This document shows positions 2,870 to 29,300 of a DNA stretch of 64,000 bases, one piece after another; position 1 is the first letter of the stretch; every line of letters starts with the position of its first letter. Under the pieces are notes generated by a model. It ran no database searches, was not told the origin of the DNA, and saw only the letters and a list, made by a program, of their open reading frames with translations. The translations under genes were made by a program, and so were the position numbers. This stretch comes from Struthio camelus (taxonomy: Eukaryota > Chordata > Aves > Struthioniformes > Struthionidae), in the NCBI RefSeq assembly GCF_040807025.1, contig NC_090964.1, forward strand, positions 7,061,214 through 7,125,213. The letters are read 5' to 3'.

Positions 2870-3883
2870 CTGGTGCACGAAGACATCGACAGGGGAGTCC
2901 AGCGTCGCGCCGCCCTTGGCGGTCATGGAGAGGAACCCGAAGCCCATGCGGACGTTGAACCACTTACAGATGCCGGAGCCGTGCAGCAGCTGGGGCTCGT
3001 TCTCAGCCTTGGGCGAGTCTCCCGCCGGCTCCTCGCCCGTCTTCGCACCTGGGGACAGACCCATGAACCGGCTGAGCTGAGGGGCCGGGGGAGCTGAGGG
3101 TCCCCGCCAGCTGCCCCATCCAGGCCCCGGGACCCCCGAGCCTCCCCTCGCAGCACGGCTGCTGCCTGCCTGCCCCGGAGCCCCAGGGAGCCGGCAGCGG
3201 GGGGAGCGAGCACCCCTGGAGGGGCCAAATCCTGCTCGGGTCCTGCAGGCTGGCATGCAGGGAAAAGGCACCCCGCCCCATCCCCAAAACAGAGAGATCA
3301 GCTCTGCCTCCGTGTGCGCGCAGGGATCGCTCCAGGAGCCCGAGGAGAGGAGAGCAGCTCCTTTCGGCACGACCCGGGCAGTGCCGGGCTGGCAGCCCCT
3401 AAGTCCATCCCTCCCTCCCCAAAAAACCCCCACAAACAAACAAACAAAGCACAAAAAAGGAAAATCTCCCCCAAAATACCAACCCGAAATCACCCCGTCC
3501 CCAGCAGACCACGCTGGAGAAAGTAGCTCTATTCCCCCCTCCCAAATCAGCAGCCATCCGGGCACAGCAGGAGCCCCCGGTTCAAAACCGACCCCGGCAT
3601 CCAGGGTCAGCCCCAAACTTCTGGGCTCATCCTGGGACGGGGAGGGGGGGGAAGGAAAAAACAAAACAAAACCCCCAAAAGCCCAAAGCGCAGCCCTAGA
3701 GCTGAGGCAGCAGGGCGCAGGGCGCCGGCCTCGCTGGCAGGGCGCAGCGGGCCCAAGCGGGCCGGGCTGCGCGGGGGCCCTGCGGCCGGGCCGCGATGGG
3801 GTTATTAATAATCGCGGAGCCGAGGCGGGCTGCGACAATAATATAACTTAACCTGCAAACTGCTGGTTGGAAACAGACCCCAT
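2870..3883 (-). CDS. LIN28A: LIN28A, coding exons 1-2 (5' part of gene)
   Basis: LIN28A is an RNA-binding protein that blocks let-7 maturation and supports pluripotency. Exon 1 is 3853-3883 (ATG at 3883) and encodes MGSVSNQQFAG, the familiar N terminus, followed by donor GTTAAG. Exon 2 is 2870-3048, after acceptor CCCCAG and before donor GTACGC. Lengths 31 and 179 nt join in phase to give 70 codons. Exon 2 holds EPQLLHGSGICKWFNV and the first half of the cold-shock domain, with RNP1-like GFGFLSM and RNP2-like VDVFVHQ. The linker between the N terminus and the domain differs from mammals (PAGDSPKAEN), and LDSPVD replaces the LDPPVD I recall from human. The rest of the cold-shock domain and the CCHC knuckles are outside the window. 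The gene is head-to-head with ZNF683, as in mammals. Confidence 0.95.
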
Positions 3884-4450
3884 CCCGACACTCGCTTGCA
3901 AATTCCGAGCTGTGGCTGTTACCGCCTCCTCCCTCCTCCTCCTCGGCCAGCTTTGAGGGTATCAGCCCAGCCAAAAAAAAAAAAAAAAAAAAAAAAAGAA
4001 ACCAACAAAAAAAAAACCACAGCTTAGACCCCGACAGGAGGGAGCCGGGAGAGGTTTGACTCCATCTTCACTCCAACAATAGGGGTGGGAGGGAGCGGGA
4101 GGGTTTTTTCAAAGGCTCCCAAATTCTCGGAGACAATAGCGGCCCCCGCCGCCCCCGCCCGCCTCGCAACACCCCGGCACCCACCCGCGGGGCCGGGGGG
4201 CGCGGGGCCCCCCTCCGCCATCCCGCCGCGCCGGCCCTGCGCCGCCCGCCCCGCCGCTCCGCGGGTTCGAGCCCGCCCGGGGGGCGCCCGCCCTCCCCCC
4301 CCACGTGACCCTAATTAACCCCCCCCCCCTCCGCGTTAATAGCGATACATTCCGGGAGGGATTTGGGGAGGGGGAGGTTCTCCCCCCCCCCCCGCTGCTC
4401 CAATCAGGGCGAGGCCACCTGTCAAGCCGAAGAAATGACCCCCCCCCCCC
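3884..4450 (-). promoter_or_regulatory. LIN28A: LIN28A 5' UTR and promoter region
   Basis: The sequence upstream of the LIN28A ATG combines a CpG-rich core with short AT-rich motifs. Two SOX-type ACAATAG sites lie at 4076-4082 and 4133-4139, a TCF/LEF-type TTCAAAG at 4108-4114, a MYC/USF E-box CACGTGAC at 4302-4309 next to CTAATTAA, and a CCAAT box at 4400-4404 followed by CACCTGTCAA. A 25-A tract (3973-3997) falls in the presumed 5' UTR. SOX2, MYC and Wnt inputs are known for LIN28 genes; that these copies are used is inference. No TATA box is obvious. Confidence 0.6.
3973..3997. repeat. A25 homopolymer in LIN28A 5' UTR/promoter
   Basis: Uninterrupted A run of 25 bases, followed after a short gap by a second A-rich stretch. 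It reads as poly(T) in the sense orientation of LIN28A. Length is likely variable and prone to sequencing error. Confidence 0.8.
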
Positions 4451-7084
4451 GATGCGCTAAGGCCGTGGGACCCCCCGGGGGGGGGGGGGGACGGAGTTTC
4501 CCCCTCATTTCTCCACGCTTCCCCCCACCCCCGCGCAAGCGAAGCCACCTGCGACCCGGGGGTCCCCGGGGACACCCGCCGGGGTTGGCCCGGGACAACC
4601 GGGCCGATCCTGCCCTGGCAGCCGGGCACCCGCGGGCCCTTCGCCCCCGGGGGGGAGAGGGAAAAAAAAAAAAAACCCAAACGGGTGGGAAAAACTCGCA
4701 GGTCCGCGGGGGGCTGCGGCCGCTTGCCGGCGGCGGGGCCGTGCGCTCCGTCGGGCCGGGCCCCCCGCGGACCTGAGCTCACCCCGGTGCTGCGCCCCCA
4801 GCCCTCCTCGGGCCGGGCAGCCCTCGGGGCCCGCGACTGCGGCCGGGGGTGGCGGGGCCCCCGCGGGGCCGCGGGCCGCTGCCCCCCCGCGCCGGGCGGG
4901 GACAAAGGGCGAGTGACCAGCGCCTCCATTTCCGGTGGCCAGTGCGGAGCGGACAATGCCCCGCTCGCCATCCGGCCGGGCCCGGCGGCGGAGGGACAGC
5001 GCCGCCCGCCGCCGCCGCCCCGGCCCGGCCCGGCCCGCAGCGCGCTGCGCCCACGCCGCCGGGCGGGTGGTGGCGACGCGTGGGCTGCCCCCACGGCGAC
5101 ACCACCCAGCACCGCCCCTCCAAGCCAAGCAGGGGCAAACGGGGAGAGTCCCCTCCACCCCCGCAAACGCCCCGTGGGGAGCCGTATCTGCGCTGCCCCG
5201 GCGTTGCCCCACGCGGGACTCCCAGCCGCGTGGGCCCCGTTTCTCCGGCGAGCAGCGGGGCACACCCTGCTTGCTAGGTTGGGCACTCTAGGGGGGCGGC
5301 GGGACCACCCTGCCCACCCCCTCCTCCGGGCCCCCGATCCCGCGTGGGGACCCCCGCGCGGCGTGGGGGCGCCGCCCGCCCCGGCGTCCGCGCCGCCGGC
5401 CCTGGCCATGGTGCTGAAGCGCCGCCGCTCCCTGTCCAGGGTTCTGGGGGCTCCCGCCCTTCCTCCTCCTCCTCCTCCTCCTCCTCCTCCTGGCCCGCAC
5501 AGCCATCGGGGGCAGGACGGACCCGCCGAGCCCCCCCGCGGCTCGGCCTCCCCCCTTCCCTTCCCGGCAGAGCTGAGAGGCTTCGCCGCGCTCCGACAAG
5601 TGAGGTTTGGGGCCAAAAAGGAGCAGCCGGATTTTTATTTTTGTTTTTCATTTTTTCTTTCCCTGTGTCTGCAGCCCTGGGAAAAAAACGGGGGGGGGGG
5701 GGGGGGGGCTGCGACCTGCCACAGCGGAGATGAACCAGAGAGAGATACTTGTGGAGACAGGAATTGCCTGTTATCAGCACTCAGCAGGGCTAATAATGGT
5801 TCAGGGAAGTTCTCGGGTTGTCCCTGCGCTTTGGGCCGATGCCACGGGGACGGGCGGGGCAGCGGGAGCTGCCAAACCTCCCGATTCAGCACACCAGCCG
5901 CAAGGCAACCCCCCCACGAGGGTTCGCGGGGGCGACGAGGACGCGTCCGTCGGGCGCGCCAACGAGCCCCCCCGCCCCCCCATTCTCATTCTGCGCGGTC
6001 CGGACACTAATGACTTCTGGTTATTACCGAGCAGTGACGCGGGCCGAGGCTCCCGGTGGCACCGGCCCCTGCGGCGCCGCCTCGGCCCGAGCGGAGCCCG
6101 CTGCGCCCCCGGGCTCCCCCCGGCCCCGGCTGGAGGCTCCCGCCGGCCCGGCCCGGCCCGGGGAGCGGCGGGCGCCGCGCTGCCTCTGGCACCCTCTCCC
6201 GGCCACGCAGCGGCAGGCCAGCCTCGGGTTCGTCCTCCTTTTGCTGGCTTGCTTGGGATAATTTGGAGGAAAGAAGAAAGAAAGAGAGGAGAGGAGAAAA
6301 AAAAAAAATTGAGGGAGACGCTTCTGTGTCTTTTCCTCCCATCTCTCCTTTCCTGTTTCCTCCTCTTCGCTCTTTCCTGCCGGGCAATTTCAGTTGTGCC
6401 ACACACACCGTCTGCACAATTTGCTCCTGCGCTTTGCTCCTGTTTCACCCCTGGAAGCAGTAAAGCGAAAAAGCCCGCAAGCAAGCCCAGACCCCAGGGG
6501 GGGATAACAGGCAACTCCCCCCCCCCACCGTGTTTGTGGGGCTGGGATCAAGGTTTTCCGAGCAGCCCTGAGAAGCATCCCCCACAGCTCTGCACCTTCT
6601 GCCACCAGTGGAGGTGACACCGAAACGCCAGCGGCTGCAGGAAGCCCGCCTGGGGACGGACCCCGCCGTGGACGGAGGGCATCCTGGGGCAGGCAGGACA
6701 TCCTGTAACGCAGAGGGCAGACGGAGGTGGGCAGAGCTGCAGAGCAGCCGGGCGGCTCGCTTGGGAAGGATGTGGCAAGGAATCAGTCCTCGCTTTCTGT
6801 GAAACTAATCCTTTGGAAAATAATCCAGCATTGTGCATCGACTTCCTCCCTCCAGCCACTTCCCGTCTTCTCGCAGCTGATCAGGCGCAGGGCCCGGCAG
6901 CCCCAGATGCCTCTTTCCTGCAATTCTGTTCAAACTTGGCGGCAAGTTTCTCAACGGCCGCCGATTTGTGCCCGGTCGCCGTGACCGGCTCTTTCTATAA
7001 CAGCGCCGCAGCCCTGAGCACGGCAGCTTCCCCGTTACAATAAAACCTGGCACTGCCGAGCCCCTGCGACACAGCCCGCAGCAG

Positions 7085-7345
7085 AGCCAGCCCAGCCCCG
7101 CGTAATATTTGTGTGTGTGGCGTATTTGTTTTCGGGGCCTGTTGAATGGCGAACGTGAAAGGGAAGGGGAGTCCTTCCTGTTCTTTCAGAGCCCGTCGCT
7201 GCGCTCTGCTCTGCTTCAAGGGAACAGCCAGCAAAGCGGCCGCTTTCACAAATAATGGCTTCATTAGATTGAAAGAAGTGGACAGTGACCTCTCCGAAAT
7301 GGACTTTCTGACCCCTGCTGACCTTTCGCCCTCGCTCTGACAGCC
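7085..7345. promoter_or_regulatory. AT-rich island with a perfect DR4 nuclear-receptor element
   Basis: High-complexity, AT-richer sequence. At 7309-7324 the plus strand reads TGACCCCTGCTGACCT. On the minus strand this is AGGTCA and GGGTCA as direct repeats spaced by four bases, the geometry bound by thyroid-hormone receptor/RXR or LXR/RXR. A third TGACCT half-site lies at 7286-7291. Nearby CACAAATAATGGCTTCATTA looks like a homeobox/POU cluster. Enhancer function is inferred. Confidence 0.4.
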
Positions 7346-8734
7346 TGTAAATCTTCCCCCTCGCGGCAAGGCCGGGGCGAGCAAAGCGAGCGCCCCGCCG
7401 GAGCGCGGTGCGCCCGTCCCGCTCCCTGCCCGCGCCGGCGCGAGCCCAGCTGCCCGGCGGGGCGGGTGCCCGACGCGCTGCTGCCCGGGGGTCCCGGCCC
7501 GCTCTGCCCGGCTGCGGGCAGGGGTCTCCCCGCTCCCAGCGGGATCAGGGCCTGGCAGCGCGTACAACCCGGGTGCACGGCTGGGCGAGCCACAGCTTTG
7601 GCCAAAACGGGGACTGGTGTCCTCTTTTCCCCCGCAAGCCAGAGCTGGGACGGGCTCAGGGGAGCAGGAGGGACCTGGGCACTGGGGAACGGGGTTATCA
7701 GCGCGCCACGGGCCCAGGAGCCCCTTGGTGGGGGTCTCGCCCTGGCGATCACCGGCTCCGCGCACCGGGAAGGTGCAGCACAGCTCACCGCGCGCGCTGC
7801 CCGCCCGCCCGCAGGCTCGCGTGGGGCACGTCAGCCCCTGGGGCTCCTGCAGCTCCTGTCACAGGGCAGACGTGGCCTGATCTGCAGATGGGGAAACTGA
7901 GGCATGCTGGGGCTGCACGCTGGGAGCCCCGAGCGTAAGGCAAACCGGTCGACGCGCGGGGCTGGGAGAGGGGGAAGACGGGCCGATGCCTGTGCTGGGC
8001 TCCCTGCTCTGGCTCAGCTCTCCGGGCTCCCCCATCTCCCAGCCTGGCACCCATCCCCTGGGCTCTGGTCCCCGGCCGCCAGCCCCGCGCTCCCCAGCGC
8101 CTCCCTCCTCCCCAGCCCGTGCAGGGACGCCGCTGACCTTTGGCTACGGAGCAATCAATAACGGAGGCCGCGGAGCCGCTCCTCCCCCCTGCCCTTCCCC
8201 CTGCTCCCCCAGTGCCCGCTGCACCGCTCAGCGCCTCTAATGAGCCCCGGCCGTGATTGAGGAACTGTCAGGTACCCCCGGCCGCGGGGTAAACGGGGCC
8301 GGGGGCTGCATCGACCCGCCGGAGACACAGGTGTGTTCCCGGGACCGCCGCCACCACCGGGAACCCCCTTCCCCACGCCGCCCTGCACACGCTCCCCGGC
8401 ACCCGCCGGCGGCTCGGTCCCCCCGGCCCCCGCGTTCGGGGACACGCAGCTCGTCCCCGCCGCGGGCACCGGAGCGCGTCCCCTCCTGCCGCGATCGGGA
8501 GCGACGCTCCCCGGGGGCATCGGCTCTTTGTGAGCGAAAGTCGAGGAGGGCGAGGAGCAGGGATTACCGCTGCTGTCTGCCTTCCAACGTGCTTCGCTGC
8601 TTTTCTGCGATTTCACTGCATTTTTTTGGACAAGCTGGGAAGATGAGAAATGCGGCGAGGGAGATGATCGCAGCCGGGAAGGATGGGTCGTGCCCAAACT
8701 CAGCCTCTCCCCTTTGCATTCCCAGCTCCCTCCG

Positions 8735-8880
8735 ATGACAGCCCTCGGCCAGCAGCGGCTGATTGATTGGCTGGAGAGCGGGGATTGATCAGGATTTCGG
8801 CCCCATGCATATTCCTGCTATCTGATAAAGGGAAATCGATAGCTGAAAGAGATATTCCTCGGAGGCCGGCCTCTCCGGAG
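8735..8880. promoter_or_regulatory. AT-rich island with clustered GATA, PBX-like and homeobox-like motifs
   Basis: In about 145 bases there are TGATTGATTGG, GGGATTGATCAGGATT, ATGCATATTC, a facing GATA pair TATCTGATAAAG and AATCGATAGC. Such density of PBX/HOX-, POU- and GATA-like sites in otherwise GC-rich DNA is typical of a tissue-specific enhancer. Assignment to LIN28A or ZNF683 cannot be made from sequence. Confidence 0.35.
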
Positions 8881-11554
8881 GCAGCAACCTCGAGCAGATC
8901 AAGGCTTGCAAGCCTTTCCTCGCCCCCTAGATCCCCCCAGCCCGGTTCAAGCCCTGCTCCCCCCAATGACAAACCCATGCAGCAGGGCAGGAAAGAGCCG
9001 AGGGGCAGGAGAGGGGGCCGGGCTGGCACCGGGGGGACGCAGAGGGGCCGGGGAGAGGGGACAAAGCCTCTGCTCCTGGGTCTCACCTCCCAAAGCATCG
9101 GCCGTCCCCAGGTCTTCCTCCTCCTGCTAACACCCTGGCAAAGGGGCTTTTCCTCCTTCTTCTAAGATACAGCGATGCCCCAAAAGCTCTCCTCTCCCCC
9201 CCAAGGAAGCAGGGGGGCTCGCCAGAGCTTTCCCGCGCTTGCAAACCCCCTCTGCCCGCCTGGGCCTCCTGGGGAAGCGCCAGGCTCTCCTCTCCTCCCC
9301 TGCCCGTAACGGAGGGCCAAGAGCGGGTGGAAAGCCGGGCAGCGGCGAGGACCCCTGGCCGAGGGGATCCTTGGATCCCAAGGCAGAGGAGCCAGCCTCA
9401 CTCGGCCCGTGCTGGACGCCTCCTGGCCCTGCCAGCTGGGCCTCCTTGCCCGTCTTTCCCCCAGGCTGCAGCAGCTGCCGTCTCGGGTCCTAAGCGGGCC
9501 GGGGTCTCGCCTCGCTGCCCAGGCCACCCGGCAAAGCCCCGGGCCCCGCTGCCCCTGCTTTGTGCCTCCCGCTGGCCCCGGGGACCCGGCCTCCCGCTGG
9601 GGGTTTGGTGCCGTGGGGGTTTCAGCCCCGCTCCCCCCTCGCCAGCCCGTGCCAGCCAAGGGGGGCGCTGGGCCTTGGCTTTCAGCAGTGCCGCAGCCCC
9701 GGGGGTCCCCCCCAGCCGCGGGGCGAGCGGGGCCGGCTGGCGCTCGCGTGCCCCCGGCCAGCTGCCGCTGAGCCGAGTCCTGGCAAAGCAAAGCACTTTC
9801 CTTCGGGCAGACGCATCTGCAGCCCGTCACCTCCAGACACCAGCACCCTGCGGAGACATCGCCCCCGGCCCTTCACCGGCGCTGAGGCCTGGAAACTCAT
9901 TGCAAGCCTGGCAGGAGCTGCCTCCCGCAGGGGCACGGCCGGGGCAGCGCCCTCCAGCCCCCTCCCACCCTGGCGTGCTCCAGCTGCCCCCCATCGTCAG
10001 CAACCACACCTGGGGGGGCGAACGGGCACCGGGGCTGAAAAATCCCCTTGAAACACCGCCCGGGGGTGAGCGGGAGGGTCTGGGCAGGCGGCGGCGGGGG
10101 CATCCTGGTGGCTGTGCGCCCCCGCAGAGACCCGACGCTCTCGGTGCACGGCAGGGCTGCGGTGAAGCCTGGCAGCGGCGGCTGCTCTCGCCGCTTTCCC
10201 ACCCGGGTGGCTGCGCGGCAGCCGGCACCCGAAGCCTTTTCTTATAAACGCCCCAGGTTATTTTAAACCGTGGGGCCCTTCCAGGAAACCCCGAGGCGAG
10301 AACGGGCAGGCAAGGGGGGGGTGCTTCCGAAAGGCGCCCGCTGGCGGGGCTGCCAGCTGGCTCGGCACTGCCCTGCCAGCATCCCCCCCTCCCCGTGCCA
10401 TGCCCGGGCCGGCTCTGCGTCATGAGCGGTGCCAGGCCTTAGCTCCGGCGCTCGGCGCCTGCCCCGCGCTGCAGCCCAGCTTATCTCGAGGCATCTGGCG
10501 CGGGCAGGGGAGGCGCCAAGGGCTGGCGGGGGCGATGGGGTCCCCGCGGTGCAAACCGAGGGGGGTCCGCACGCACGGCACAGGGGGTCGGGGGGGGCGC
10601 GGGGTGGGCGGCCACGCGGGAATCGCGGCGGGGCGTGGGAACGGCGGGAGCGCGCTTTCCTTTGGAAGCCAGCGCTTGCCTCCCGGCCGGCAGCCCCTGG
10701 CCCCCCCTTCACCCTGCCCACCCTCCCCTTCCCCGCTGCCCTCCCTCCCTCCCGCGCACCCGCCGCCCTGCCAAGCTGTCCCTGGGCGCCCCACGTCCCC
10801 CGGGGCCGGGCACGGGTGCAGAGCCGGGCAGCGGCGAGGACCCGTTTCCCCCCCCCCTTTCCGCCCTCATCGCTATTTCGGTCTCGCGGTCTCGTTATCT
10901 CTCAGCCTCCTTTTACTTTTCCTTTCCCTTGGCCTCCTCGGAGCCGCCTTCCCCTTCGCGCCCTGCGCGGAGGCAGCCGGGGTCTCGGCCCCTTCGGCCC
11001 CTCTGCAGCCCGGGCCGCGGGCGCCTGCTCCCACCGGCGGGCTACCTGCCCCGTGGGTCCTTCCCAAGGGCGACGAAGTTCCTCCTCTGGCCGGGGCGGC
11101 CGGCGACTTTCCCTTTCTGCCACCAAAGGCCTCGGGCCGCGAATAGCCGCAAAGAAAACTTGATTTTTTTGGCAGGCGTTTCGGTACGCGAGGCAGGAGG
11201 AAGACAAGCGGGAAAAAAGACGTTTCAGGCTGAAAATCCCGTGCTCCTTCGACCGCCTGCCTGCGCGTCGCGGGTGGCGAAGCCGCCGGCTTCTCCCTTG
11301 CGCGTCCCACAAAAGACGGCGGACGAGGGTCCGGCGGCTCCGCGGAAACCTGCAGAGAGCAAGGACGGGGCTTTTCCCGGCCGTCGTTTTACCTGGGGAT
11401 AGCCGGACGCTGCGGGGCGACCCCGGCTCTCGTTCGGGTTCATCCTCCAGCGCCGACGAAGCTGCGATTTTAAGCAGGGGCACGGCTAGCGCTGGCCCCG
11501 GGGTGCCGGCAGCACGGCCGCCGTGGGCGCTGCTGGCAGCGGGGAGGCCGGCCT

Positions 11555-12316
11555 GGTTCCCGGCTCCCAGCTCCCAGCTCCCGGCTCCCGGCTCCCGGCT
11601 CCCAGCTCCCGGCTCCCGGTTCCCGGCTCCCAGCTCCCAGCTCCCGGCTCCCGGCTCCCGGCTCCCGGCTCCCAGCTCCCAGCTCCCGGTTCCCGGCTCC
11701 CAGCTCCCAGCTCCCGGCTCCCGGCTCCCGGCTCCCAGCTCCCAGCTCCCGGTTCCCGGCTCCCAGCTCCCAGCTCCCGGCTCCCAGCTCCCAGCTCCCG
11801 GTTCCCGGCTCCCAGCTCCCAGCTCCCGGCTCCCGGCTCCCAGCTCCCAGCTCCCGGCTCCCGGTTCCCGGCTCCCAGCTCCCAGCTCCCGGTTCCCGGC
11901 TCCCAGCTCCCGGCTCCCGGTTCCCGGCTCCCGGTTCCCGGTTCCCGGCTCCCAGCTCCCGGCTCCCAGCTCCCAGCTCCCAGCTCCCAGCTCCTGGCTC
12001 CCGGTTCCCAGTTCCCGGTTCCCAGCTCCCGGCTCCCGGCTCCTGGCTCCCGGTTCCTGGCTCCTGGCTCCCAGTTCCCAGCTCCCGGTTCCCAGCTCCC
12101 GGCTCCCGGCTCCTGGCTCCCGGTTCCTGGCTCCTGGCTCCCAGCTCCTGGCACCTGACTCCCAGCTCCCAGCTCCCAGCTCCCAGCTCCCAGCTCCCAG
12201 CTCCTGGCTCCCGGCTCCCACCTCCCGGCTCCCACCTCCCGGCTCCTGGCACCTGGCTCCCACCTCCCGGCTCCCACCTCCCGGCTCCTGGCACCTGGCT
12301 CCCACCTCCCGGCTCT
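11555..12316. repeat. Heptamer minisatellite (GCTCCCR)n, about 108 copies
   Basis: The plus strand is an almost perfect array of a 7-base unit GCTCCCG or GCTCCCA, with GTTCCCG and GCTCCTG variants. The left two-thirds is most homogeneous. The right end carries a longer higher-order unit with CACCTCCCGGCTCC and GGCACCT, repeated at about 12235-12310. Because 7 is not a multiple of 3, every frame reads as a 7-residue peptide repeat, and several frames on both strands stay open across the array. The minus strand has runs of three G every seven bases, a strong G-quadruplex pattern. Embedded ORFs should not be read as genes. Confidence 0.95.
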
Positions 12317-15300
12317 CCTTCCCTCTCTGGGCTGGGTTTTGCAGCCGGCAGAGAGGTGGCCGCGGAGAGGTGGCTGCGCTCCGGCCCCCGGTTCCCCGCG
12401 CCGCCCCGCGAGACGCGTGGGGACGCCGGCACGGCTCCACGGCGGCTCGAGCAGGCCAGGAATCGCTCCGCGCCACGCTTCGTGCCTTGTCCTCGTGCCT
12501 CAGGGCTGCAGACCGGTGCCCTTTGCATGGTTCGGGGCAGGATTCGGCCTGAGCTCTGCCTAAAGCCCCGTTTTGTGACGTGCCGGTCCGTTGGGAAGGG
12601 GACCGCGGACCCGGGCTGTCCCGCACGGGGGAGAGCAACGCGCCCTCCCACTGCCACTTTGGCTCCGGAGCAGGAGGAAATCCCTGGAGGGAGACGGGGG
12701 CGGCGAGCTGCATCGCCCGCCGGACGGGTCCCGCTGTCCTGGCTCGGCCGCGGGAGCCGGGGACGTCTCCGGGGACGTGCCGGACCCCGGGGACGGTGGG
12801 CAGCGCCGGCGCACCGAGATCACGGCAGCAGCCCCGCGCGGCCCCCGGAAAGGCGTCAGGGTGCCACGAGCCGGAGGGCGGACGCGTCGCCCCGCCACCC
12901 CCGCAGAGCCCAGCACCCCCGGTGCCTCCGCCTGGGGCTCGGCCCCTCACCCGCGTCAAGCCGGAGTCCGGGGGAACGAAAACATACGGAGCAGCTGGGT
13001 GGCAGCCGGCGGCCGGGACGCCTCTCCGGGGCCGGGGGAATTGCAGCAGGCGGCGGCCGGCTAGGAAATGCCGCGGGCCGGCAGCCGGAGCACGCCAGCT
13101 GCGGCGGGCCGGGCGCGGGCAGCAGCACGCCGTCCTCCGCGGGCGCTCCGGCGGTGGCGGCGGCGGTTAGCGGAGGAAGGTGGACGTTTGGCAGCCGGCT
13201 TCAGGGCGCTCCTGGATGCGCCTCTGAGGCGGGAGGCGACGTAACGCGTTTGTCGAGCAGGTCTGGCCAAACCCAAGAAAGTGTTAGCCACCAGTAGGTT
13301 TCAGAGTTAACACCCCAGTTGAGGGCAGCCATTCATGTGGTCTCAGGCTGTCAGCCGACTCCAGCAGAGGCTGCTGCCTCTCTTCACAGTTTCTTTAAGG
13401 CTCCCCGCACCGCCCGCGGACGGTGACGTTGGCTCTAGCCCCTGGGCCACGCTCCCGCTCGCCGGGGAGCTCCGCGAACCGCTGGCACCCTTTTCCCTGC
13501 TCCGTCCGTGCCCTGCTGCCGTCCCGCTGCGCCCGGCCTCCTCCTCGGCCGATTGACCCGAGCGGGGCGTTAGCGGAGAAGCCGGATGCCTGGGGAGGGG
13601 GTGCCGGGGTGTTTGGGAGCCAGCTGGGAGCGAGGGCAGGATTAAGGTCCGCGCGGCGTAAACCAGCGCAGGGATTGCGGGAAAGCACCGGGCTCGGGCT
13701 CGGATGCATTACGGACACCAGAGCGAGGGGGAATGGCAGGTCCTGGGAGAAGCGAGGGGAGGCTGGGGACTTCCCGGCCGCGGTGGGAGCATCCCCTCCG
13801 CCGCTGCGGGACGAGGCCGGCGAGCCCGGGAAGGGCCTGAGCCTGGCGCGGCCTCCCCACGGCGCAGAGGCTCAGCGGCCAGGCCAGCCGCGGCCCCGGC
13901 TCTCGGCCCCGGCCTTTCCGCGCTCGGGGGACGGAGGCAACGGCAATTTCGGCAGCGAGCTCCCAGCCACCCGCCGGGCTGCGTGGCGGGGTGCCAAACT
14001 GCAGGGAGCCGGGGCCGGACCGGCAAGCGGGTCCCGAGTCGGGCACGGCCGACGGGCGGCCCGGGTGGGAGAGGACGGCGCCTTGCCCCGCTGGGACCCG
14101 CTGGACCGCGGTGGCCGGGGGACAGGCGGGACGCGGCCCCAGGGGGCAGAGGACGGCGGCCCCGGCGCGGGCGAGAGGAGCAGAGGTGCCGGCCCCGGGG
14201 CTGGGTTTATTAAAGCTAACGCGGTTTTCACCTCCTCCTCTTCCTCCCCGTGGTGCTGCCGGTGCCGAGGCTTCACCTTGCCTCTCCAAATTTAGCGAGG
14301 GCCCCCAAACCAGCCGGGTTTCCTGTTCACCGCCTCTCGCCCAGCAGCCACCGGGTCAAGGCGAGCGAGCGGCTCGTCTCGCGTCCTCGGCGCCCGGGGC
14401 CCAGGCGCCGCGGCCAGAGCAGGTAGGAGTCCCCGCGCTGCCGCTCCTGGCTCGGGGACGTCCCCCGTGCGCAGGAGTCTCGGCCTTTTCAGCCTCCTTT
14501 CCCCGCTTCCCCTGCCGCCCCCGGTTCAATTACCCCAAAAGCCAGCACCCGTCTGTTTTCTTTTGGGTGCACGGTGGGAGCAGGGCAGGGCTCGGAGCCG
14601 GGGCCGACGGCACGGCCTTACCAGCGGAGGCCGGTTTCTATTTGGTCCCAGCGGCCACGGTGCAAACTAATCTCATCCTTGCAAACGGCTTTGTCCGGCC
14701 AGGGCACCGCTCCTGGCGCCGGGCTCGGGCCCCGCGGTTTGGTGCCGCGGCATCGGCGTGCCCCGGCGCCCGCGAGCCCAGCTCCCGGCAGCTCCCGGCT
14801 GCCTCCGCCGCCTTCTGATGCCCCAGCTGATCCCGGCAGCTCCACGTCCCTCGGCCACTTCGCCGGGGCGGCTCGTGCCCGGGCGGGTTTGCAGCAGCGG
14901 GGGCCGGGGTGACATCCCCCTCGCCACCGCTGCCACCCTGCTCCACATGCCGGTGCTGGCAACGCTGCCTGCGTCAGGTTCGGGTTTCCTCCGCTTCTGC
15001 TGGCGGAGCGCATCCTTCCCGCCGCCTCCGCTGCGTGGGCACGGCGGCTGCAGGTCACAAAAAAAAAAAAAGCCACATCTAGTTGCCCGCAGGCTTTGGC
15101 TGTCAGTGTTTGCAAGGCAGAAGCTAAAGGCAGGTTGCAAGGGGCTCAGCGGAGCTCTCTGGGGTACGGCCATGCCCCGGGGCACCGGTACCCCTCTGCC
15201 TGCTGCGCCCCGGGGACACGCCAGCCCCGGCTGGGCGCCAGCAGGGCCGAGCGGTGCCCGTGAGCCCTGGGCGCCTGCCGGGACGGCGTCTGGCCGGGCT

Positions 15301-16415
15301 CTGCAGAGACGGGAGAGCTTGGCCGGGCGCTCGGCACGGGGCACCCGCGGGCGCAGGCCGGCGCTTGGGTGCTCGTCCTCCCTGACCCCAGCCGCCGCGC
15401 GGGGCTGCCGGGAGCAGCAGCAGGAGCAAAAGCGATCTCGGTGTCACGAGTCGTCCGGTCTCTCTCCTGCTGTTGCGGGCAACAAATTCCTGCAAAAGGA
15501 GCCCGGGGGAAGTTGGTGGGGGGGGGATCAGGGCAGGATCAGGCCCTTTGGGGGTCACTGCTCTCAGCAGGGCGGCTGCGAATCTCTCCTGCTGATAGAG
15601 GAGGAGGAGGAAGGAACCGGCCAGGTCCCCGTGACAGGGGCTGGGGCAGCCTGGCCGCGGTGCCCGGGCAGGAGAGGGGCGCCGGGCCGCTCTCGGGCAG
15701 CAACGGACCCGGGAATTTGGGGCTGCCCAAATCCAGCCCGGCCAAAGGAAGGGTTTTTCCGCTGCTGCCGGTGCCGGGGCAGAGCCCGCTCGCTCTGCTT
15801 TCTCCTTTCTTAGGAGGAAACGAGGTGGCGGCGGCGCCGAGCCTGGGCAGCCCTCCGCGCTCTTCCAAGGGAGCCGGCGCGGTTCGTGCGCCCGCTCTCG
15901 GGGCGAAAGCGGCACGGAGAAACCCCGGCACTGCCGGCGGCGGCGGGGGGCCGGGAGGCGAAACCGAGCCCGGCGCCGCGGCGGCTGCGCGCTCCAAACC
16001 CAAAACCCCCCGCCGGGTGCCCAGGCTCCGGCAGCGAGTCGGGGACCCCACGGGAGCCCCCCGTCCTCACCGGGGCGGCCTCTCGCTCGGGGGAGCCCCC
16101 TGGCCCTGGCCCTCGCTGTTTTGGGGTCAATTTGTTTCGACGGGGACGAATTAGGGCGCGGAGCTGGGAGCGGGGCAGACCGGATGCCGGGGTCCTTCTC
16201 GGTGTGTCCGCGGGACGGGTGGTCCCACCGCTGCGTGCTGCAAGCCCGGACACCGGGGTCCTCCTAGGCTCTCGCATATAGCAAGTGCCGGGGCAGAGCT
16301 GCCATCACCCGGGAGGCCGGCAGATCCCCCGGGACCGGCTCGCGGGGACGGGAGAGGCCCCGGGCGCCCCGCCGCAGCCCGCGGGGCTCAGCGGCTGCCG
16401 TCGCTCGCCCCGCAG
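12317..16415. other. Upstream region of ZNF683, no coding exon identified
   Basis: CpG-rich, with an A-run at about 15059-15071 and a (GAG)n patch near 15600. I looked for further upstream PR-domain exons matching the PRDM1 family and found no convincing match. The ZNF683 promoter and first exon probably lie here but no TATA box or unambiguous first exon stands out. A less GC-rich patch at about 13250-13340 is unexplained. Confidence 0.5.
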
Positions 16416-16662
16416 ATCCGCTCGCCCGGAGGGGAGCCCCGGCGCCTCCTCGACGCCCGTCGCGGCGGCCGGATGCGCTACGACGTGAACCCGGCGCCCG
16501 CCTGCCCGACGCAGGAGCCGGCGGCCTGACCCGGCGGCCCGGACGTCTGCTCCGACATGCTGCGGCCGGTGCTGGCCGGCACCCAGCCCGCCGCGGGGTG
16601 CAGCCGGGAGCTGGGCCAGCACCTGCGGCACCCGCTGCCGGCGGAGCCGCCCCCCTGGCGCA
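16416..16662 (+). pseudogene. ZNF683: ZNF683 upstream exon: decayed PR domain with in-frame TGA
   Basis: The exon follows acceptor CGCCCCGCAG and precedes donor GTGAGG. Read in phase 0 it starts IRSPGGEPRRLLDARRGG, then MRYDVNPAP, TQEPAA, TGA (16527-16529), then PGGPDVCSDMLRPVLAG and RELGQHLRHPLPAE. This is colinear with the PRDM1 PR-domain exon as I recall it (IYSRGELHHFIDG, MRYVNPAHS, NLAACQNG, FYTIKPIPAN, AERLHYPYPGE), with 39 residues after the TGA position in both. The TGA sits where PRDM1 has the Cys of LAAC. After the stop the frame is open to the exon end, and the one-base overhang joins in frame to the next exon and the ZNF683 fingers. Catalytic PR function is not expected, as the family is already degenerate in mammalian HOBIT. 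The TGA could be a true nonsense change, a polymorphism or a consensus error. Confidence 0.65.
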
Positions 16663-16939
16663 GTGAGGACACGGCCGCCGGCGGGAAGGGGCTCCTGCAC
16701 CCCTGGGTGCTGCTCTGCTGTGCGCCTTCCCCCTTCCTCTTTCCATCCTCTTCCTCGCCCGCTTTCATTCCCTTCTTGCTGCCCCGCTAACGTCCCCGTG
16801 TGCTCCTCTGCCCGCAGCCTGGGGTGACACGGAGGGAGGTGGTGCAGGGGCCGCCGCGGCCCCCGCCGGCCGCGCGGAGGAGGAGGAGGAGGAGGAGGAG
16901 GAAGAGGAGAGAGCTGGTGCCGAAGAGCCGCCCGGAGGC

Positions 16940-18508
16940 ATGGAGCCTGAGCCGGCCGCATCGCCGGCCGCCAGGAACGGGCCCTCCTGCCGGGGCGAGC
17001 CGGCGCCGGCGGGGTCGCAGCCGCCCCACGGCACCCCCGGGCAGGGGGCCGCTGCCGAGAGGTGCGGCTCTGCCCCTTCGAGAGCTGCCGGCCCCTGGCA
17101 CCCGGCGGCCGGCCTCTTCGCCCCCTTCCCGCTCTGGGTGCCCTGGGGTCCCCCGGCCCTGGCGTCCCTCTACGCCTGCGGCCCCCTCCCGGCCGCCCGC
17201 AGCCAGCTCCTGCTGGCCCCCTGCCCCGCGCACATGCCGCTGGCCCGGCCGGGCGCCGCGGGGCGGCCGGCGGCGAGGGGGCACCCGCTGCTCGCGGCGG
17301 TGCCGCCCTCCGCGGGGCCCTACGGCACCGTGCTGCCTCCCAGCCCGCTGCCCCGGCCGGAGCTCCCGAAGGTGCCGGCTGCTTTTCTCCTGCTGGCCGG
17401 CTGCGGAGAGGAGGGGTGCCCGCGGGAAGCGGCCCCCCACGCCGCCCCCCAGCCCGCCGCCCCCAACCCGCTCCCCCAGCGCCACGACAAGGTCAAGTAC
17501 GACTGCACCACCTGCGGCAAGAGCTTCGGGCAGCTCTCCAACCTCAAGGTACCGCCGGGCGCCCCGGCACCCGCCTGGGTGCGGACGCGCCGCCCGCTAG
17601 CGAGGGGGACGCGGCCCCGCTTGCCCCCCCTGCCCCGGGCCGAGCGGACCGACGCGTCGCCCCCCGCCCCGGCGGCAGGTCCACCTGCGGGTGCACAGCG
17701 GCGAGCGCCCCTTCCAGTGCCCCGTCTGCGAGAAGCGCTTCACCCAGCTGGCGCACCTGCAGAAACACGGCCTGGTGCACACGGGCGAGAAGCCGCACGA
17801 GTGTCCGGTAGGTGCCACGAGCTCGCGGGAGCGATGCCGAAAGGCCCGCGGCGCGCGCCCTGCGCCGAACCCGGCGGCCCGTTCGCCCCGCAGGTGTGCC
17901 GCAAGTGCTTCAGCAGCACCAGCAACCTGAAGACGCACCTGCGGCTGCACTCGGGCGAGAGGCCGTACCAGTGCCGCCTCTGCCCCAGCCGCTTCGCCCA
18001 GCACATCCACCTCCAGCTGCACCGGCGCCTGCACGAGCGCCGGCGCCCGCCCCGCTGCTCCGGCTGCCCCTTCCTGCACCCCTGCAGCCTGGCCCTGCCC
18101 CGCCGCGGCTGCGGCCCCCCGGACCCGCTGGGCCCCCTCGGCGCCGCCACGGAGCCCTTCGCCCTCAGCCTGCAGCAGCAGCAGGAGGAGGAGGAGGAAG
18201 GGGGGACCCGGCCCGGCCCGGCCCTCCTGCAGGGCTCGGTGCTGGGGGAGCGGGCGACGGGCCGGCCCGGGCAGCCCCCCGGCCACGCGACGCCCCGCGC
18301 GCCCGCTCTGCCCCGCCGCGGCGTCCCGCCACGTGGCCGGCTTGAGCCCGGGGCCGCCAGATCTCAGGGGTGCACCCCGGGGTGCGCACCCCCCCGGGAC
18401 CCCCTGCCACCACCACCGCCAGCGGCTCGCGGCAGCCGAGCGTCCCCCCCCCGCCGGGCCGCGGGGATGGGCGCCGGGGGCGGCGGAGCGCCCACCGAGA
18501 AGCTGTGA
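16940..18508 (+). CDS. ZNF683: ZNF683 (HOBIT), BLIMP1-like zinc-finger transcription factor
   Basis: ZNF683 is the PRDM1-like repressor of tissue-resident lymphocytes. The exon beginning at 16818 (acceptor CCCGCAG) runs to 17548; then 17679-17807 and 17894-18508, all in phase 0. From the first ATG after the upstream stop (16940) the product is 450 residues. An acidic Glu run encoded by (GAG)n precedes that ATG, then a Pro/Ala-rich region, then four C2H2 fingers: [51 protein letters not shown] and [17 protein letters not shown], with SGERPF/TGEKPH linkers. Intron positions inside finger 1 and between fingers 2 and 3 split the finger array. A fifth finger survives only as CSGC...[10 protein letters not shown], lacking its histidine. 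The C-terminal tail has a QQQQEEEEE tract. The start is uncertain because of the TGA in the exon before. No nearby AATAAA follows the stop. Confidence 0.9.
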
Positions 18509-21500
18509 GCTGGCAGCCGCCGGGCGGCCGGCCCGACCCCGAGCCGCGAGCCGGGGCCGGCGACCGGCAGCGCTCCGGCGTCTTTATTCAATACCATTTT
18601 CTGCCTTCGGAGCTCAGCTGCCTTTTCTGACCTGGGCTGGGGGCTGCGCGAGAGCCCGGGTGCCCCACGTCCCTGCCGGGCCGGGCGCCGGGAGCAGCGC
18701 GGGGCCGGAGCGGGGGGACAGGGCGCGCGACGCCCCGGGGCAGCCCGGGGAGGAGGGGGCTTCGGAGGCTCCCCTTCAGAGGGAAGGGGAGCTGGGGGGG
18801 GGGGGGGGGCGCGGGGCGGGCGAGCCTCGGCTCCGTGCACGCCGGGGTTTGCCACCGCGGGGCAGAGTCCGCCGTGACCCCCCTGCGTCTCTCCGGGATG
18901 GGCGCAGAGGAAGGGGCGCGAGCTCCCCGACCCCAGCCTTCGGCCTGCGCCTCGGTTTCCCCTGCGGTGTGCACGGGGCATCTCGGGGCGGCGGGGGTCT
19001 AGGTTGGATATTCCTGGGGGGGGGGGTCACATCTGGCAGCTTTTCCTGGCTCGGGGTGGTGCGGGGGAACGGGAACAAACCCACCAAACATCCAGCGCTC
19101 GAGGCCAAATCTCAGCTGCGCCAGCGGCACCCAGGGCCGGGCGATCGCGCGCACCCAGGGGTGTCCCCAGCTGGAGACGGCCTCCGGGAGGCCGAATCGC
19201 GCCGCTCGTCGCTGGCCGCGGAGGTGTCCCTGCCTCAGGGGGCTGTGGGGGGCAGCAGGGCACCCGCGGGTGCTGGGGACGAGCTCAGGGCAGGGTGCTG
19301 ATACCGGCCGGGTGCCGGCTCCGACGCTGCTCAGAGCCCCTCCGGGACGAGAGCCAGCGCCCAGGCCCCTGGGGCAAGGCTGAAGCAAGTGGCTGAGCCT
19401 CCCTGGGTGGCCCAGGGCCACCGTGACCCCCTCTCTGTCCCCCAGCCACCGTGTCGCCCCATGGACGAGGCGGCGGGGCAGCTACGGGGACCCGCCGGCC
19501 GCAGCCACCGCCGCCTGGCCCTGGCCCTTCGCGCGCCTGCAGAGACCCGCCGCGGGCAGCGACGCGGCCGTGCGCGGCCGGCTCCAGCTCTCCTCCACCG
19601 AGGTGCTGGCGGAGGCGCTGGGCAGCCCGGGGCTGCCGGCCGCCGCGGGCGCCGAGCCCAACGGGGCGGCCGGCGCCGGTGTCGAGACGCCCTCGGAGCT
19701 GCCCACCGACCCCAAGACGCTTGGAGCCACCTTGGATCGAGCTGCGGCTCCGGAGGGTCCAAGCGGGAGGCCCGAGGGGCCGATGGCGTTGGCTGCGGTC
19801 GTGGACCCGGGGCTGCCCCAGCCCCTCGCGGCCACGGGCCGGCAGAGCCCCGCTGCGGGAACCGACAAGACGGGTGCAAGATCTGCTACTGGGCCACCAT
19901 CACCTTGACGGAGGCGGGCGAGGATGAGGAGGGTGGAGAAGCAGAGGCAGCGGGCAGGGGTCCACGGAGGCCCCCCCGCCGGCCGCCTGGGCGGGCAGGC
20001 CACCCTCCCAGCCCTGCTGAGTCGCAGGAAACGGAGGAGCCGAGCCGGCTCGCCGGGGGAACCAGCCCGACCGGCTCGCCGGCTGTCAGCACCTGAGGAA
20101 TGCCAAACCTCCGCTCGGCCGGCCAGGGCTGGCTGCTCGGCGGCGAGGGCCGGGTGCTCAGCCGGTCCGCCCAGCCGCCGCGCGCCTGGCGCAGCCAGCA
20201 GCACCCGGCGCCCAGCGCAGCCCGCCCGGCCAGGACAGCGCGGCCACCCGCGGGACACCCCTCCGCCCGGCGGCACCCTCGGCCGGCAGGTAGGCGGGGG
20301 GGGCTCCCGCGGCCGCCCGTTGCTGTCTGGGAACCGGCGGAGGGGGGAGGCAGCGTGTGAATCCGGGCTGCCAGCGCCCAAAACCCCAGCCAGGCTGCGA
20401 GCGCGGCCGGCAGGCAGCGGAGGGGGGGGCTCAGCCCAGGCCCCCGGCCCGCGCGCACGGCGAGACGGGCTCCCCGCTCAGCCCCGGCGGCGCAGGAGGG
20501 AAGCGGATGGGGATTCGGGGCTGAGCCCGGCTCTGGCTCTCGTAGGCTCGGTCCCGGGGGGCTGCTCCGGTTTAAACCCTGCTCCGAGCATCACAATATA
20601 GCCCAGACCCACCAGGAGCAGCGGGGCTCCCCCGTCCCCCCCCCTTTCCCCACCGCCTGGGCGTCCGAAACCGCGACAGCTCCGCTCGGTGGGAGGGAAG
20701 CACCAGGCACCAAGGGGAAATGGAAATTGCCCTGCCCTAATTATTAACCCCAAAGTGAGCAGCAGACGCCCAAACCAAACACCTGCGTTTCCTGCAGGCG
20801 GCGGGTCCGTTTCCAGCCCGCCGCTATCGGACACGTCCTCGTGCGTCCAGAGGCCCAATCTTCTCCCCGGCCGCCGGTTCGAAGCCCGCTACGGCTGGGA
20901 CGCGGCGGTCTCTGCCCTCGGCAGCCGGAAGGGTCGGCCCCTCCGGCACTTTTGAACAGTAAATGGCATTTTTGGCCTTTTAATTGGATGCTTATAAGCC
21001 CTGAATAGGGTGCTTAAAGACCCCCCCCGCCCCGCACGGCAAATCGTTCCCTCGTGGCAGAAGCCAACAAATTAGCCGACCGGGTTCGCTTCGCCTGGAC
21101 AGGGGGTGATTAATGAGCCGCGCCGTTGCGACAGGCGCGCTCGGCGTTAGCGCGCGGCGGCGGCGTGGGAGCCGCCGAGCCGGAGGCAGCGGGGCCGGGC
21201 AGCGCCGCCCTCGCCCCAGCCAGCGTCCCCGTTTCGCGGGGAAAGGGCCTGTCCTCGCCGGCCTCTTCGCCCCCGTCGCGGCTAGCGATAGCCTACATAA
21301 AGCCGCCGGGCTCCGCGGGTGACGGCTGGCGGAGCAGGGCTCCGCGCCAGCCCCGTCCCCAGGCCGGCCCAGGGCAGCGCAGGGCGCAAGAGGCGGCTAC
21401 GGCATGTAGAGGGGGGGGCCAAGGGCCGGGGAAAATAGGGCCTCGAGATGGTTTGGAAATCGGGCTCTGGGCAAAAGTCAGCCCGGCTGGCTGAGTCACC

Positions 21501-23389
21501 GGGCCGGCACCGGGAGACCCGCGGGCTCGGCGGGGAAAGCCCTTCGGAGGCGGCAGGTAGCAGCAGGCAGGACGGCGTCGCGGGGGGGGGCAGAGCGCCG
21601 CTGTCGCAATGCAGGATGCGACCTGATTGCAGCAGAAAACGCAGCCGCTCCGGCGGCGCGGGGCCGGGCTCCCCGCTCGCCTCCAGCCTCCCATCCGCCC
21701 GAGCGGAGCCCGGCGGCTGCCTGAGCCACCCGCGCTGCAAAAGGGGCCCCGGACGGCGCCGCCGCTCACGTGCCGTCCGAAAGGGCGGACAGCCTGGCGG
21801 AGAGCGCCGCTGGCTTTGCTGATTTGGCTTCGAGCAAGTCACCCCCTGCGCAAGCCTGGCCAGCTCGGGGGCAACTCGTGCGAGCGGGGCCGGGGCGCCG
21901 AGCGCCGCAGGCGGCAGCAGCCCTGCGCGGCCGTCCCGGCACGAGGCAGCGGCCGTGGAGCCCCGCTTCGTCTGCCGTCCAGCCTAAACCTCGTCTTGGC
22001 CGTTTGTTCTTACACCCACCTTGTGCCCGGCTCCTCGCCCTTAAAATAGCCAGGGCTGGTCTTGGCCTCGAGCTGTGCTCCCTGGCGAGGTCTCAGCGCC
22101 GCTGGTAAAATGACTCTAACCCTTGCTATCTCTGCCGGAAAGACCTGCCGGGCCAGGGGACGTGAGACGCAGCGGGTGCTGGCGGGGACGGTGCCAGGGA
22201 CAGCGCTGCCTGGCCCCGGCCTCCCCAAACGCCCCAGGGAAGCCCAACCTGGGAAACAGCCGCGGGGAAGCGAGCTCTGAGCAGGAAGGTTTTGCCCGGG
22301 CTCCCAGCCGGGAAAGGCCCAGGCGCAGCCCCTCCGCGGGACGTGCCCCAGACCCCCTTCCCTTCCGCTCTCGCTGGGTCGGTGACACCAACTAAATTGG
22401 GAGATGCCGAGGCCGAGAGGCCGTCACCGGCGGGTGCTTCGTCAGCTGCTTTCCAGAACCCAAACACAGCAATAAAACCGTTCTGGGGCAGTTACGCCGC
22501 CTAATCACAGCGTCGCCTCCCCGCGAGCCCGAGCTAGGACGGCTCAGGGCAGGGCTCCGGTCCCCGCAGCCTCCTGCCCCGCGTCCCCTGCCGAGCAGGA
22601 CGGGGCCGCATTGGCATGGTGCAAGAGCCCGGTAATTAGTGCGGCTCGTTTGCTCATGCCAATGGGGCCCCTGGAGCTAGAGGGAGCAATGCCCTCTTTG
22701 CCGAGCCGCAATAGCCACCGCCACGGGGCCGATGCTGCAAGGACAAGCCGAGCCTGGGGCTCGACTGCCACCTCCTCCTGCCCCAGCCAGGCCGTTTCGC
22801 TCGCGCTCCCTCCCGGCACAGCAGCTTTTTGGGCTGTTGCTTTTCGGGCTGGCTCGTTCGCAGCGTTGGCTGAGTCGGCGCAGCCTGACCCTTCGTGCTG
22901 CCGGGACCCTGCCACCCCTCTGGGCTGCTACCGTGTGCGGCAGGGCCCCGGCGGGCAGCGCGGCCGTGCCCCGTTGGGGACCGGGGACGGAGGCAGCCTT
23001 GCGGTGGTGGCAAAGCGCCTCTCCCTCTCCCTGGGCCACGCTCAGAAAGCAGCCAGCGCTGGTGCCTGTGGATGGAGGGGGCTCCGCGTCCCAGGCGCGC
23101 TGTGCCAGCACCGCAGGAGAGGAGGTGACTGTCCCTAGAAATACAGCCCCGTGGTGCAGCTTTCCGGAGAGCCCAGCTAGCGCCCCAAATTCACCTCTTG
23201 TCCTCAGCTCAGCCCGGCGCTGCAAGGGGGGCGCACCACGTCGCGAGACTCGGGGGTGTTCGTTAGCGCGGACAGTGTGATTTCTCTTGCCCGTTCTCTG
23301 CAGCTCCGGCAGGCCCTGCGCGGCGTCACCGGGGGGACGGAGGCTGTCGGAAACGCGCCGCAGCGTCGGGCCGGAGCAGGATCCCCGCC
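18509..23389. other. ZNF683-CRYBG2 interval, mostly no gene seen
   Basis: It is GC-rich with G runs at about 18797-18810 and 19014-19027. One stretch with coding-like codon use at 19446-19908 is listed separately. A plus-strand AATAAA lies at 22471-22476, far from the ZNF683 stop, and could end ZNF683 or an unrecognised transcript. An AT-richer island at about 20950-21025 (GGCATTTTTGGCC, TTATAAGCCCTGAATAG) may be regulatory. The sequence just before 23390 is an exon continuation: acceptor CTCTGCAG ends at 23303 and the frame of the CRYBG2 ATG is open back to it. Confidence 0.5.
19446..19908 (+). CDS. Unassigned coding-like segment between ZNF683 and CRYBG2
   Basis: I do not recognise the product. 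After a good acceptor (CTCTGTCCCCCAG ending at 19445) one frame runs open to a TGA at 19906-19908. For about its first 90 codons third positions are almost all G or C while the residues look like ordinary protein (RRGSYGDPP, WPWPFARLQRP, GRLQLSSTEVLAEALG, ETPSELPTDPKTLG). The codon bias weakens after about 19735, so a donor may lie inside. It could be an upstream exon of a long CRYBG2 isoform, an alternative 3' exon of ZNF683, or chance in GC-rich DNA. A second frame is also open here, which lowers confidence. Confidence 0.25.
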
Positions 23390-26300: not shown

Positions 26301-29300
26301 TGCTAATTATCGTGGCTCTTACGCAGCATCCCGGTGGGTGGCCGGCAGTGGCGGGGAGTCCCCACCCATGCTGTGCCGCCGGCGTCTCCTTACGGCCGGC
26401 TGTGGGCCTTGGGGGCCGCATCCTGCCGACCGCGTCCCGCACGGATTTTCCTCCCTTTGCTCTCGCCCCCCCGCTCCCAGGTGGGTGATGTACGAGAAGC
26501 CGCGGTTTCACGGGCGCAAGTGCGTGCTGGCCGAGGGCGACGTGGAGATCGACAACCCCTGGACGGCCTACGGGCAGAGCGGGCCGCCCAGCAGGACCGG
26601 ACCCTTCCGCATCGGCTCCTTCAAGAGGGTGGTGCGGGTGAGCGACCCGTGTCGGCCCTCGCGCGCTCATCCCGGCGCCAGCGACCGGCGGGCAGAGCGC
26701 AGGGCGCCGGAGCTGGCACCGCCACCCCGCAGCCGGCGGCTCTGCCGGCCCGGCCGCCCCTCATGCTGCCTGTTCCCCCCCGCCAGGACTACTGCGTCCC
26801 TGAGATCAGCCTGTTTGCGGAGGAGAACGGCGAAGGCGCCAGGCTGACGTTCACCGACTCGGCGGAGGACACCCGGACGCGGGGCCAGGCTCTGATGGCC
26901 TCCTCCGTCATCGTCCACTCGGGCCTGTGAGCCGGGGGCCGAGGGAGCGGGGTCGGGCCGCCACGAGCGGCGCCCGGGAGCGGGGCTCGGGCGTTTCAAA
27001 GAGGTTTTCCTCCTTTCTCTAGGTGGCTGGTTTACTCCAAGCCGTTCTTTGACGATGACCCCTACGTTTTGGAGCCGGGTGGGTACCCCAACTTAAAGGC
27101 GTGGGGAGCGAAGGACCCATCCATCTGCTCCATGCACCCCATCCGGCTGGTGAGTGCCGCTTCCCGGCGGCAAACGAAACGAAGCCAAAAAGATCTTTCC
27201 TTGAACGAAAATGGGGTTTGGCTCGGTTAGCGCTGGCCGGCAGCGTCCGGCCGCCGTCCCCTCCTGCCGCGGCCTCCTCGGCCTCACTGGGGCTGTTCTC
27301 GTTGCAGGGCTGCCCTGTCGTGGAGCGACCCGGGGAGCCGCAGGTGAGCGCGGCGGCACAGCAGCGCCCGTCCCGGGCGGCTGCAGGGCCGGGCCGCGCC
27401 ACGGCCGCTCCTCACCCCTCCGTGTCCCCAGGCGGTCATCTACGAGGACGCGGGCTTCCAGGGCCGCAGCTTGGCCGTGAGCCGAGACATCTACGACCTG
27501 AGGAGCCTGCCAGGGCTGCCGCTGCCCACCGTGGGCTCCCTGCACGTCCTGGGGGGCTGGTGAGCAGCTCGCGGCGGGCACGCGGCGGGGAGAGGACGGG
27601 TTTGGAGCGGCACAGCCGACTTCCCTGCGTCCTGGTGTGCGCCGGGAATTGCCCCGCTCTGCTCCGGAGACCCTGGCGGCCTCACCGCCCGTGTCTATCT
27701 GTGTGTCCAGCTGGGTTGGCTACGAGAAGGAAGGCTTTCGGGGCCACCAGTACCTGCTGGAGGAAGGGGAGTACCACGACTGGACGCAGTGGGGTGGCTA
27801 CAACAAGGAGCTGGTGTCCCTACGCCTCATTCGGACGGTGAGGGCAAGGCCGGTGGCAATGGGGGGGTGGTCAGCAGCAGTCAGGGCTGGGCCTGGTGTG
27901 GGCAGGGTGAGCTGTCCCCTCATAGTCCCATCCTTGTCCTCCCGGTCTACACCTGGCATCTGGATATGGCCCGAGATCCCCCAAACTCGTCACACACAAC
28001 GAACTAGGTGCCTAGAGCTGGTCCCACAGTCCCTGGGGTCCCGGCAGGAGAGAGTCCGGACCGCAGCCCCATCCCCCAGGCAGGCTCAGGGGCTCAGAGC
28101 GGTCCCCTCTCCCGCAGGACTTCTCCAACCCAGCGCTGGTGCTCTTCGAAGCCGTGGACTTCGAGGAGGGCCCCAGCGTGGAGCTGCGCGAGGCGCTCCC
28201 CGACACGCAGCTGGCCGGCTACGGCCCCGTCACCCAGTCCATCCACGTGCTGAGCGGCGTGTGAGTGCGGGGCTGCGCAGGACGAGGGGGCCGGGGCACG
28301 GTCGTGAGCCGGTCCCCGCGGGGGGCGAGGGAGGAACTGAGCCAGTCCCCATCTTTCCCTGGCAGGTGGGTGGCCTACGAGGGCACCAACTTCTCGGGCG
28401 AGCAGTACGTCCTGGAGAAAGGAGTGTACCGCAACTGTGAAGACTGGGGCGCCGCCGACTGCCGCATCGCCTCGGCGCAGCCCATCCTGCAGGTGAGAGC
28501 ACCCGTCCCCCGGGGCGGCAGGACTCCGGCGCAGGTGCCAGGGGCCCATCGTGGCGAGGGCTGCTTGGCAGCGCCTGAGCCCGAGCCATGCCAACCAGCC
28601 GCGCTCTGTTTGCTTCCAGGTCGGGGAACACAACCTGCACTTTGTCTCCAAGGTGAGACGGCGCTGCGCCCGTGCACGCGGTCAGGAGGGGGAACCTGCC
28701 ACTCGCTGCAGCGCCCGTTGTGGGATGGCAGCGGTGGCTTTGCCCCCATCTCACCCAGCCCCTTCGCTCCCCTTCCTCAGATCCAGCTGTTCTCAGAGCC
28801 TGACTTCTTCGGGGACCACATCTCCTTCGAGGACGACCAGGACGCCCTGCCCGCAGCCTTCGTGCCGCACTCCTGCAGAGTCCACGGGGGCAGGTAGGAC
28901 CATGCTGGCCCCGACCGCACCGGGATGCAGAGACTCGCCAGCGAGCGGGATGGGCACCCTCCCCGCCGCCCTCCAGCACCCCCGGGGATTGGGGAGAACT
29001 GGGCATCACATCTGCAGGGTGGACCAGGCTAGCAACCCCACAGGTGCCCCATGAGGGCACCCACAGGTGGCTCCGGCAGCACAGGGAGGCAGCAAGAGGG
29101 CAGGGATGGGCAGGGGTGGCCCTGACATTCGAGGGGACTGCAAGGGTCAGACACCCACCGTGACAGCAGTGTCACCCCTGGGAACGCTCCTCTCCGCCAG
29201 CTGGACCCTGTTCGACGGGCAGGCGTTTGCGGGGGAGCAGCACGTGCTGTCCGAGGGCGAGTACCCCACGCTCAGCGCCATGGGCTGCCTCTCCTCCACG

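Follow-up and report, generated by a model that had tools for sequence, protein, structure and literature searches.

In the window, which is the whole 64-kb stretch of DNA analysed here, a gene with PRDM1-like zinc fingers is preceded by an exon which aligns with a part of the PR domain of PRDM1 and carries an in-frame TGA. The original prediction described this exon as a fossil PR domain, disabled by the stop and caught while its loss was in progress. The locus raises the question whether the stop removed the PR domain or arose in an exon which had already ceased to be one. The exon with its TGA is a genuine trace, and an informative one, of how ZNF683 lost its PR domain; the stop itself probably came late, when the exon was no longer a PR domain.

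The ZNF683 gene of the window and its neighbours

The window occupies C23:7061214-7125213 of a 1.45 Gb genome, and the gene lies on its forward strand. Downstream of the exon at 16416-16662, a phase 1 intron (16663-16817), as found after the same PRDM1 exon, leads to a coding exon at 16818-17548 which contains a Glu-rich linker, a proline-rich part and the first half of zinc finger 1. It is followed by a zinc-finger exon at 17679-17807, whose two ends are in phase 0 like those of its PRDM1 counterpart, and by the last exon at 17894-18508 with zinc fingers 3 and 4, a degenerate finger 5, the C-terminal tail and the stop. Splicing of 16662 to 16818 gives a phase 1 join, and the frame is then open through the zinc fingers until the stop at 18506-18508, as had been predicted. 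Four zf-C2H2 stretches were recognised by Pfam in the spliced protein, and the array is PRDM1-like both in sequence and in its intron phases. Inspected by eye, the fifth finger (18043-18120, +) looks degenerate compared with that of PRDM1, PRRGC standing at the place of the HLKGNC end, and no acidic C-terminal tail like that of PRDM1 is apparent.

A minus-strand exon at 2591-3847, divergent from ZNF683, possesses the LIN28-type cold-shock motif GICKWFNVRMGFGFLSMTAKG; the cold-shock domain near 2974 (-) was matched with an E value of 0.0013 and 19 bits, under the 27-bit cut-off of CSD. Downstream of ZNF683, a beta/gamma crystallin gene was found at 28265-28894 (E 1.1e-17). These two genes we take to be LIN28A and CRYBG2, in line with the published gene order. 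In the study of Perdiguero and colleagues (PMC7662092), LIN28A-ZNF683-CRYBG2 is the published neighbourhood, and both neighbours in the window agree with it. According to the same study, mammalian ZNF683 (HOBIT) resembles the window gene in having PRDM1-like zinc fingers, no SET/PR domain and a position beside CRYBG2 and LIN28A (PMC7662092). The PR exons of PRDM1 are situated on C3 and the window on C23, so the window gene is distinct from PRDM1 in the same genome. We identify it as ZNF683 (HOBIT), in a genome that looks bird-like from its chromosome sizes, G+C content and sequence. An open frame with a strong periodicity peak (12.4 near 19558) was observed at 19384-19908 (+), between ZNF683 and the crystallin-family gene, hinting at a possible coding exon, and a second periodic stretch (score 11.3) at 20106-20210 (+).

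Origin of the exon at 16416-16662

The exon is 247 nt long (16416-16662, +), enters in phase 0 and leaves in phase 1. It is bounded by the acceptor CGCCCCGCAG/ATC and the donor GCA/GTGAGG, and its phase 0 reading comprises 82 codons with a single stop, the TGA at 16527-16529. Coordinates, splice sites, frame and stop are all as originally described. Scored with splice-site matrices, the acceptor reached 7.9 and the donor 4.9, compared with 8.5, 2.4 and 8.9 for the remaining acceptors of the gene and 4.6 and 7.8 for its remaining donors. With the same matrices, the best of the five AG sites which could serve as alternative acceptors inside the exon past the TGA scored 0.3, against 7.9 for 16416.

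The reference for the sequence comparison was a 61-residue segment of the PR domain of human PRDM1, obtained from a PDB alignment. The local alignment of the exon with this segment scored 65, the best of the window; the runners-up in the six frames of the 64 kb were an overlapping piece of the same exon (45) and an unrelated place (42). A score of 65 was never attained in the controls: 20,000 residue shuffles peaked at 51, and 19,235 random segments drawn from 12-28 kb at 38. Taken singly the halves of the exon are weaker, the score being equalled by 164 of 20,000 shuffles for the part before the TGA and by 20 of 20,000 for the part after it. On one ungapped diagonal, the part after the TGA scored 32, a value not reached in 50,000 shuffles (mean -53, standard deviation 14). 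The length changes of the exon relative to PRDM1 are whole codons, and the TGA aligns with the Cys of the PRDM1 LAAC motif, where the prediction had placed it. In plain database searches the similarity is weak. PRDM1 was the top of three matches when the exon was searched against PDB, but at E values of 0.57 and 0.61, and the exon was not among the 17 matches listed by a whole-genome search with the PRDM1 PR domain (E up to 10).

The decisive evidence for homology is the gene structure. In the same genome, the last PR exon of PRDM1 (C3:58444788-58445040) has 253 nt against the 247 nt of the window exon; its first codon, ATC in phase 0, comes straight after the Arg codon of FWR, its end is in phase 1, and the exon that follows has a phase 1 acceptor at 58452597. 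The window exon has the same ATC in phase 0 at its start and the same phase 1 at its end, and the neighbouring exon begins in phase 1. Both introns in the zinc-finger part are in phase 0 and interrupt the same residues in ZNF683 and PRDM1, so that four of four compared boundaries match in position and phase. With collinear protein sequence and PRDM1-like fingers downstream added to these shared boundaries and phases, we judge the homology to be secure: by comparison of sequence and structure, the exon descends from the last PR-domain exon which ZNF683 has in common with PRDM1 (Blimp-1). The predicted alignment with the PRDM1 PR-domain exon is thereby borne out, as the score of 65 against 42 and the shared boundaries and phases point to a PR-derived exon.

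Coding pattern of the exon and nature of the stop

Descent from a PR exon did not leave a recognisable PR domain. With X at the stop, Pfam found no PR/SET family at E values up to 1, neither in the exon alone nor in the spliced protein. As positive control, the matching PRDM1 exon alone was recognised as PF21549 at 8.5e-31, and it contains no stop, whereas the window exon is not recognised and carries the TGA. We searched upstream for exons that would encode the first half of the domain. In six-frame alignment none of the six best places listed per query fell within 3.2-16.4 kb, and in a splice-and-frame search the best of 328 candidates scored 27, the same as the best of 466 reverse-strand controls; both searches are of moderate sensitivity, and a diverged 40-codon exon could escape them. 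As the exon is unrecognisable as a PR domain and no upstream PR exon was found, the fold appears to have been lost before the TGA arose. The PR domain was probably not disabled by the TGA, as had been proposed, since it is unrecognisable apart from the stop. For the same reason, and with earlier PR exons not found upstream at that moderate sensitivity, the description of a loss in progress is not supported.

The exon is not decayed: its codons follow a coding-type pattern before as well as after the stop. A or T occupies codon positions 1, 2 and 3 in 15, 28 and 3 of its 82 codons, as in live exons. The counts are 7, 12 and 2 in the 37 codons before the TGA and 7, 16 and 0 in the 44 codons after it, and the flanks at 16100-16405, 16672-16800 and 18700-19400 have no such pattern. 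The whole exon had a periodicity score of 19.9, whereas 1,733 flank segments did not exceed -2.0. For the stretch preceding the TGA the score was 6.9 (maximum 5.4 in 1,810 segments) and for that following it 15.1 (maximum 7.0 in 1,798 segments); in a scan of 3-26 kb only five peaks were stronger than the latter. By themselves, the first 19 codons (16416-16472) scored -0.2. The flanks of this control were chosen by us (6500-16300, 18700-19400 and 20600-23200) and omit 3000-6500 and 19400-20600, where unassigned periodic peaks reach up to 9.3 and 12.4; adding these two would weaken the control, most of all for the part before the TGA. Periodicity kept on both sides of the TGA suggests that the exon was apparently still translated after the PR fold had gone, and the word fossil does not suit it.

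This pattern bears on the reading closest to the original prediction, that the exon is an old non-coding relic, either untranslated leader or skipped exon, whose PR domain was disabled by the stop and behind which translation runs from 16940. One stop per 82 codons would be common in random sequence of such composition, which is in line with such a relic. An old relic is, however, at odds with the retained periodicity on both sides of the TGA, with length changes of whole codons relative to PRDM1 and with the fact that PR features besides the Cys are already gone. We regard it as unlikely.

Since the exon is intact apart from the TGA and its coding periodicity runs straight through it, the stop could also be due to a miscalled base or to an allele private to the sequenced individual, in which case the species would have an intact coding exon. 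A single copy of the exon was found in the genome, so there is no second allele to compare. Against an error or allele, 476 further codons of the gene are uninterrupted within the same G+C-rich stretch, and long-read errors are not usually single-base substitutions. Such an origin of the TGA is somewhat unlikely, though it deserves to be kept in mind.

A further reading is that the TGA is decoded, either as selenocysteine at the Cys position or by stop readthrough. The frame is coding-like on both sides, and TGA at a conserved Cys is the classic selenoprotein pattern. However, no SECIS element was present among five Rfam matches (E up to 10) in 15000-23200, 3' flank included, which makes selenocysteine unlikely and led us to set aside a selenoprotein identity; PR domains are also not known to have a selenoprotein function. 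Decoding of the stop, in either form, is highly improbable. Human HOBIT probably has a related stretch (LLACLQDL) which is diverged and open, with a Cys at the place where the window exon has its TGA.

Possible starts of translation and proposed order of events

With the stop in place, translation of the zinc fingers calls for a start downstream of it, and two ATG codons come into consideration. The first, in frame inside the exon after the TGA (16557-16559, +), has G at -3 and would give a spliced protein of 526 aa. The second, at 16940-16942 (+), has G at both -3 and +4 and gives a spliced protein of 450 aa. A shortened protein, as originally proposed from 16940, is thus possible, but 16940 is not the sole possible start, as the in-frame ATG at 16557 precedes it. 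A start at 16557 would include the Glu-rich linker at 16820-16939 (+) in the protein, yet this linker shows no codon periodicity: A or T is found at position 3 in 11 of its 40 codons compared with 14 of 203 afterwards (p 0.0005). This favours the start at 16940 over that at 16557, and the periodicity beginning at 16940 also counts in favour of the relic considered above. The absent periodicity could equally stem from a young low-complexity expansion in the linker.

The CpG ratio over 15800-16662 is 0.93-0.99, compared with 0.68-0.87 in the other stretches tested. Such values allow a promoter close by, so the exon at 16416-16662 may be a first exon; a promoter or first-exon region would likewise fit the relic considered above. 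Eight candidates (donor at least 4.5) for an alternative first coding exon joining 16416 or 16818 were evaluated and none is clearly periodic, the best (16184-16201, six codons) scoring 0.4. A strong acceptor-like site (score 13.5) is located at 15814.

A possible short frame of 18 codons extends from an ATG at 16473, with C at -3, to the TGA (16473-16529, +). If the TGA is fixed and in use, the former PR exon might serve as a translation-control leader: the short frame from this weak ATG would stop at the TGA, and the level of HOBIT would be set by leaky scanning to 16557, 27 bases on, or by restart there; the protein would retain the last third of the PR exon at its N terminus. We consider this role very doubtful.

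The reading we prefer, to which we give a probability of roughly 0.58, is that a PR-derived exon was kept as an N-terminal coding exon after loss of the fold, that the TGA came late, that translation starts downstream and that the fingers are intact. In this order of events the PR fold would have been lost first, with the upstream PR exons gone and core residues replaced. The exon at 16416-16662 would then have been retained as ordinary coding sequence for the N terminus, until a single, late nonsense change produced the TGA at 16527-16529. Translation would start downstream of it, most likely at one of two ATG codons, that at 16557, with the final third of the exon still translated, or that at 16940, and the zinc fingers would stay intact.

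According to PMC7662092, ZNF683 has lost the SET/PR domain in human and mouse, but the orthologue in trout retains it. In that study, human ZNF683 is without a SET domain and each of the six Prdm1-like proteins of rainbow trout, prdm1b among them, has one. Fish prdm1b, the znf683 orthologue, belongs to the same lineage by tree and neighbouring genes and, unlike the window gene, has kept its SET domain (PMC7662092). No report of a PR-derived exon in bird ZNF683 was found in the portions of the literature available to us. Among 587 pattern matches for relatives in bacterial and archaeal contigs, none was confirmed.

ZNF683 is called absent in chicken in PMC7662092, which makes a G+C-rich, bird-like copy with open zinc fingers useful in itself. 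An exon with unchanged PRDM1 boundaries and no PR signature represents one route by which a PR domain may be lost, in which the fold goes first and the exon stays coding. If the stop is real and common to relatives, it would provide a dated later step of this loss and a test of the role of the HOBIT N terminus.
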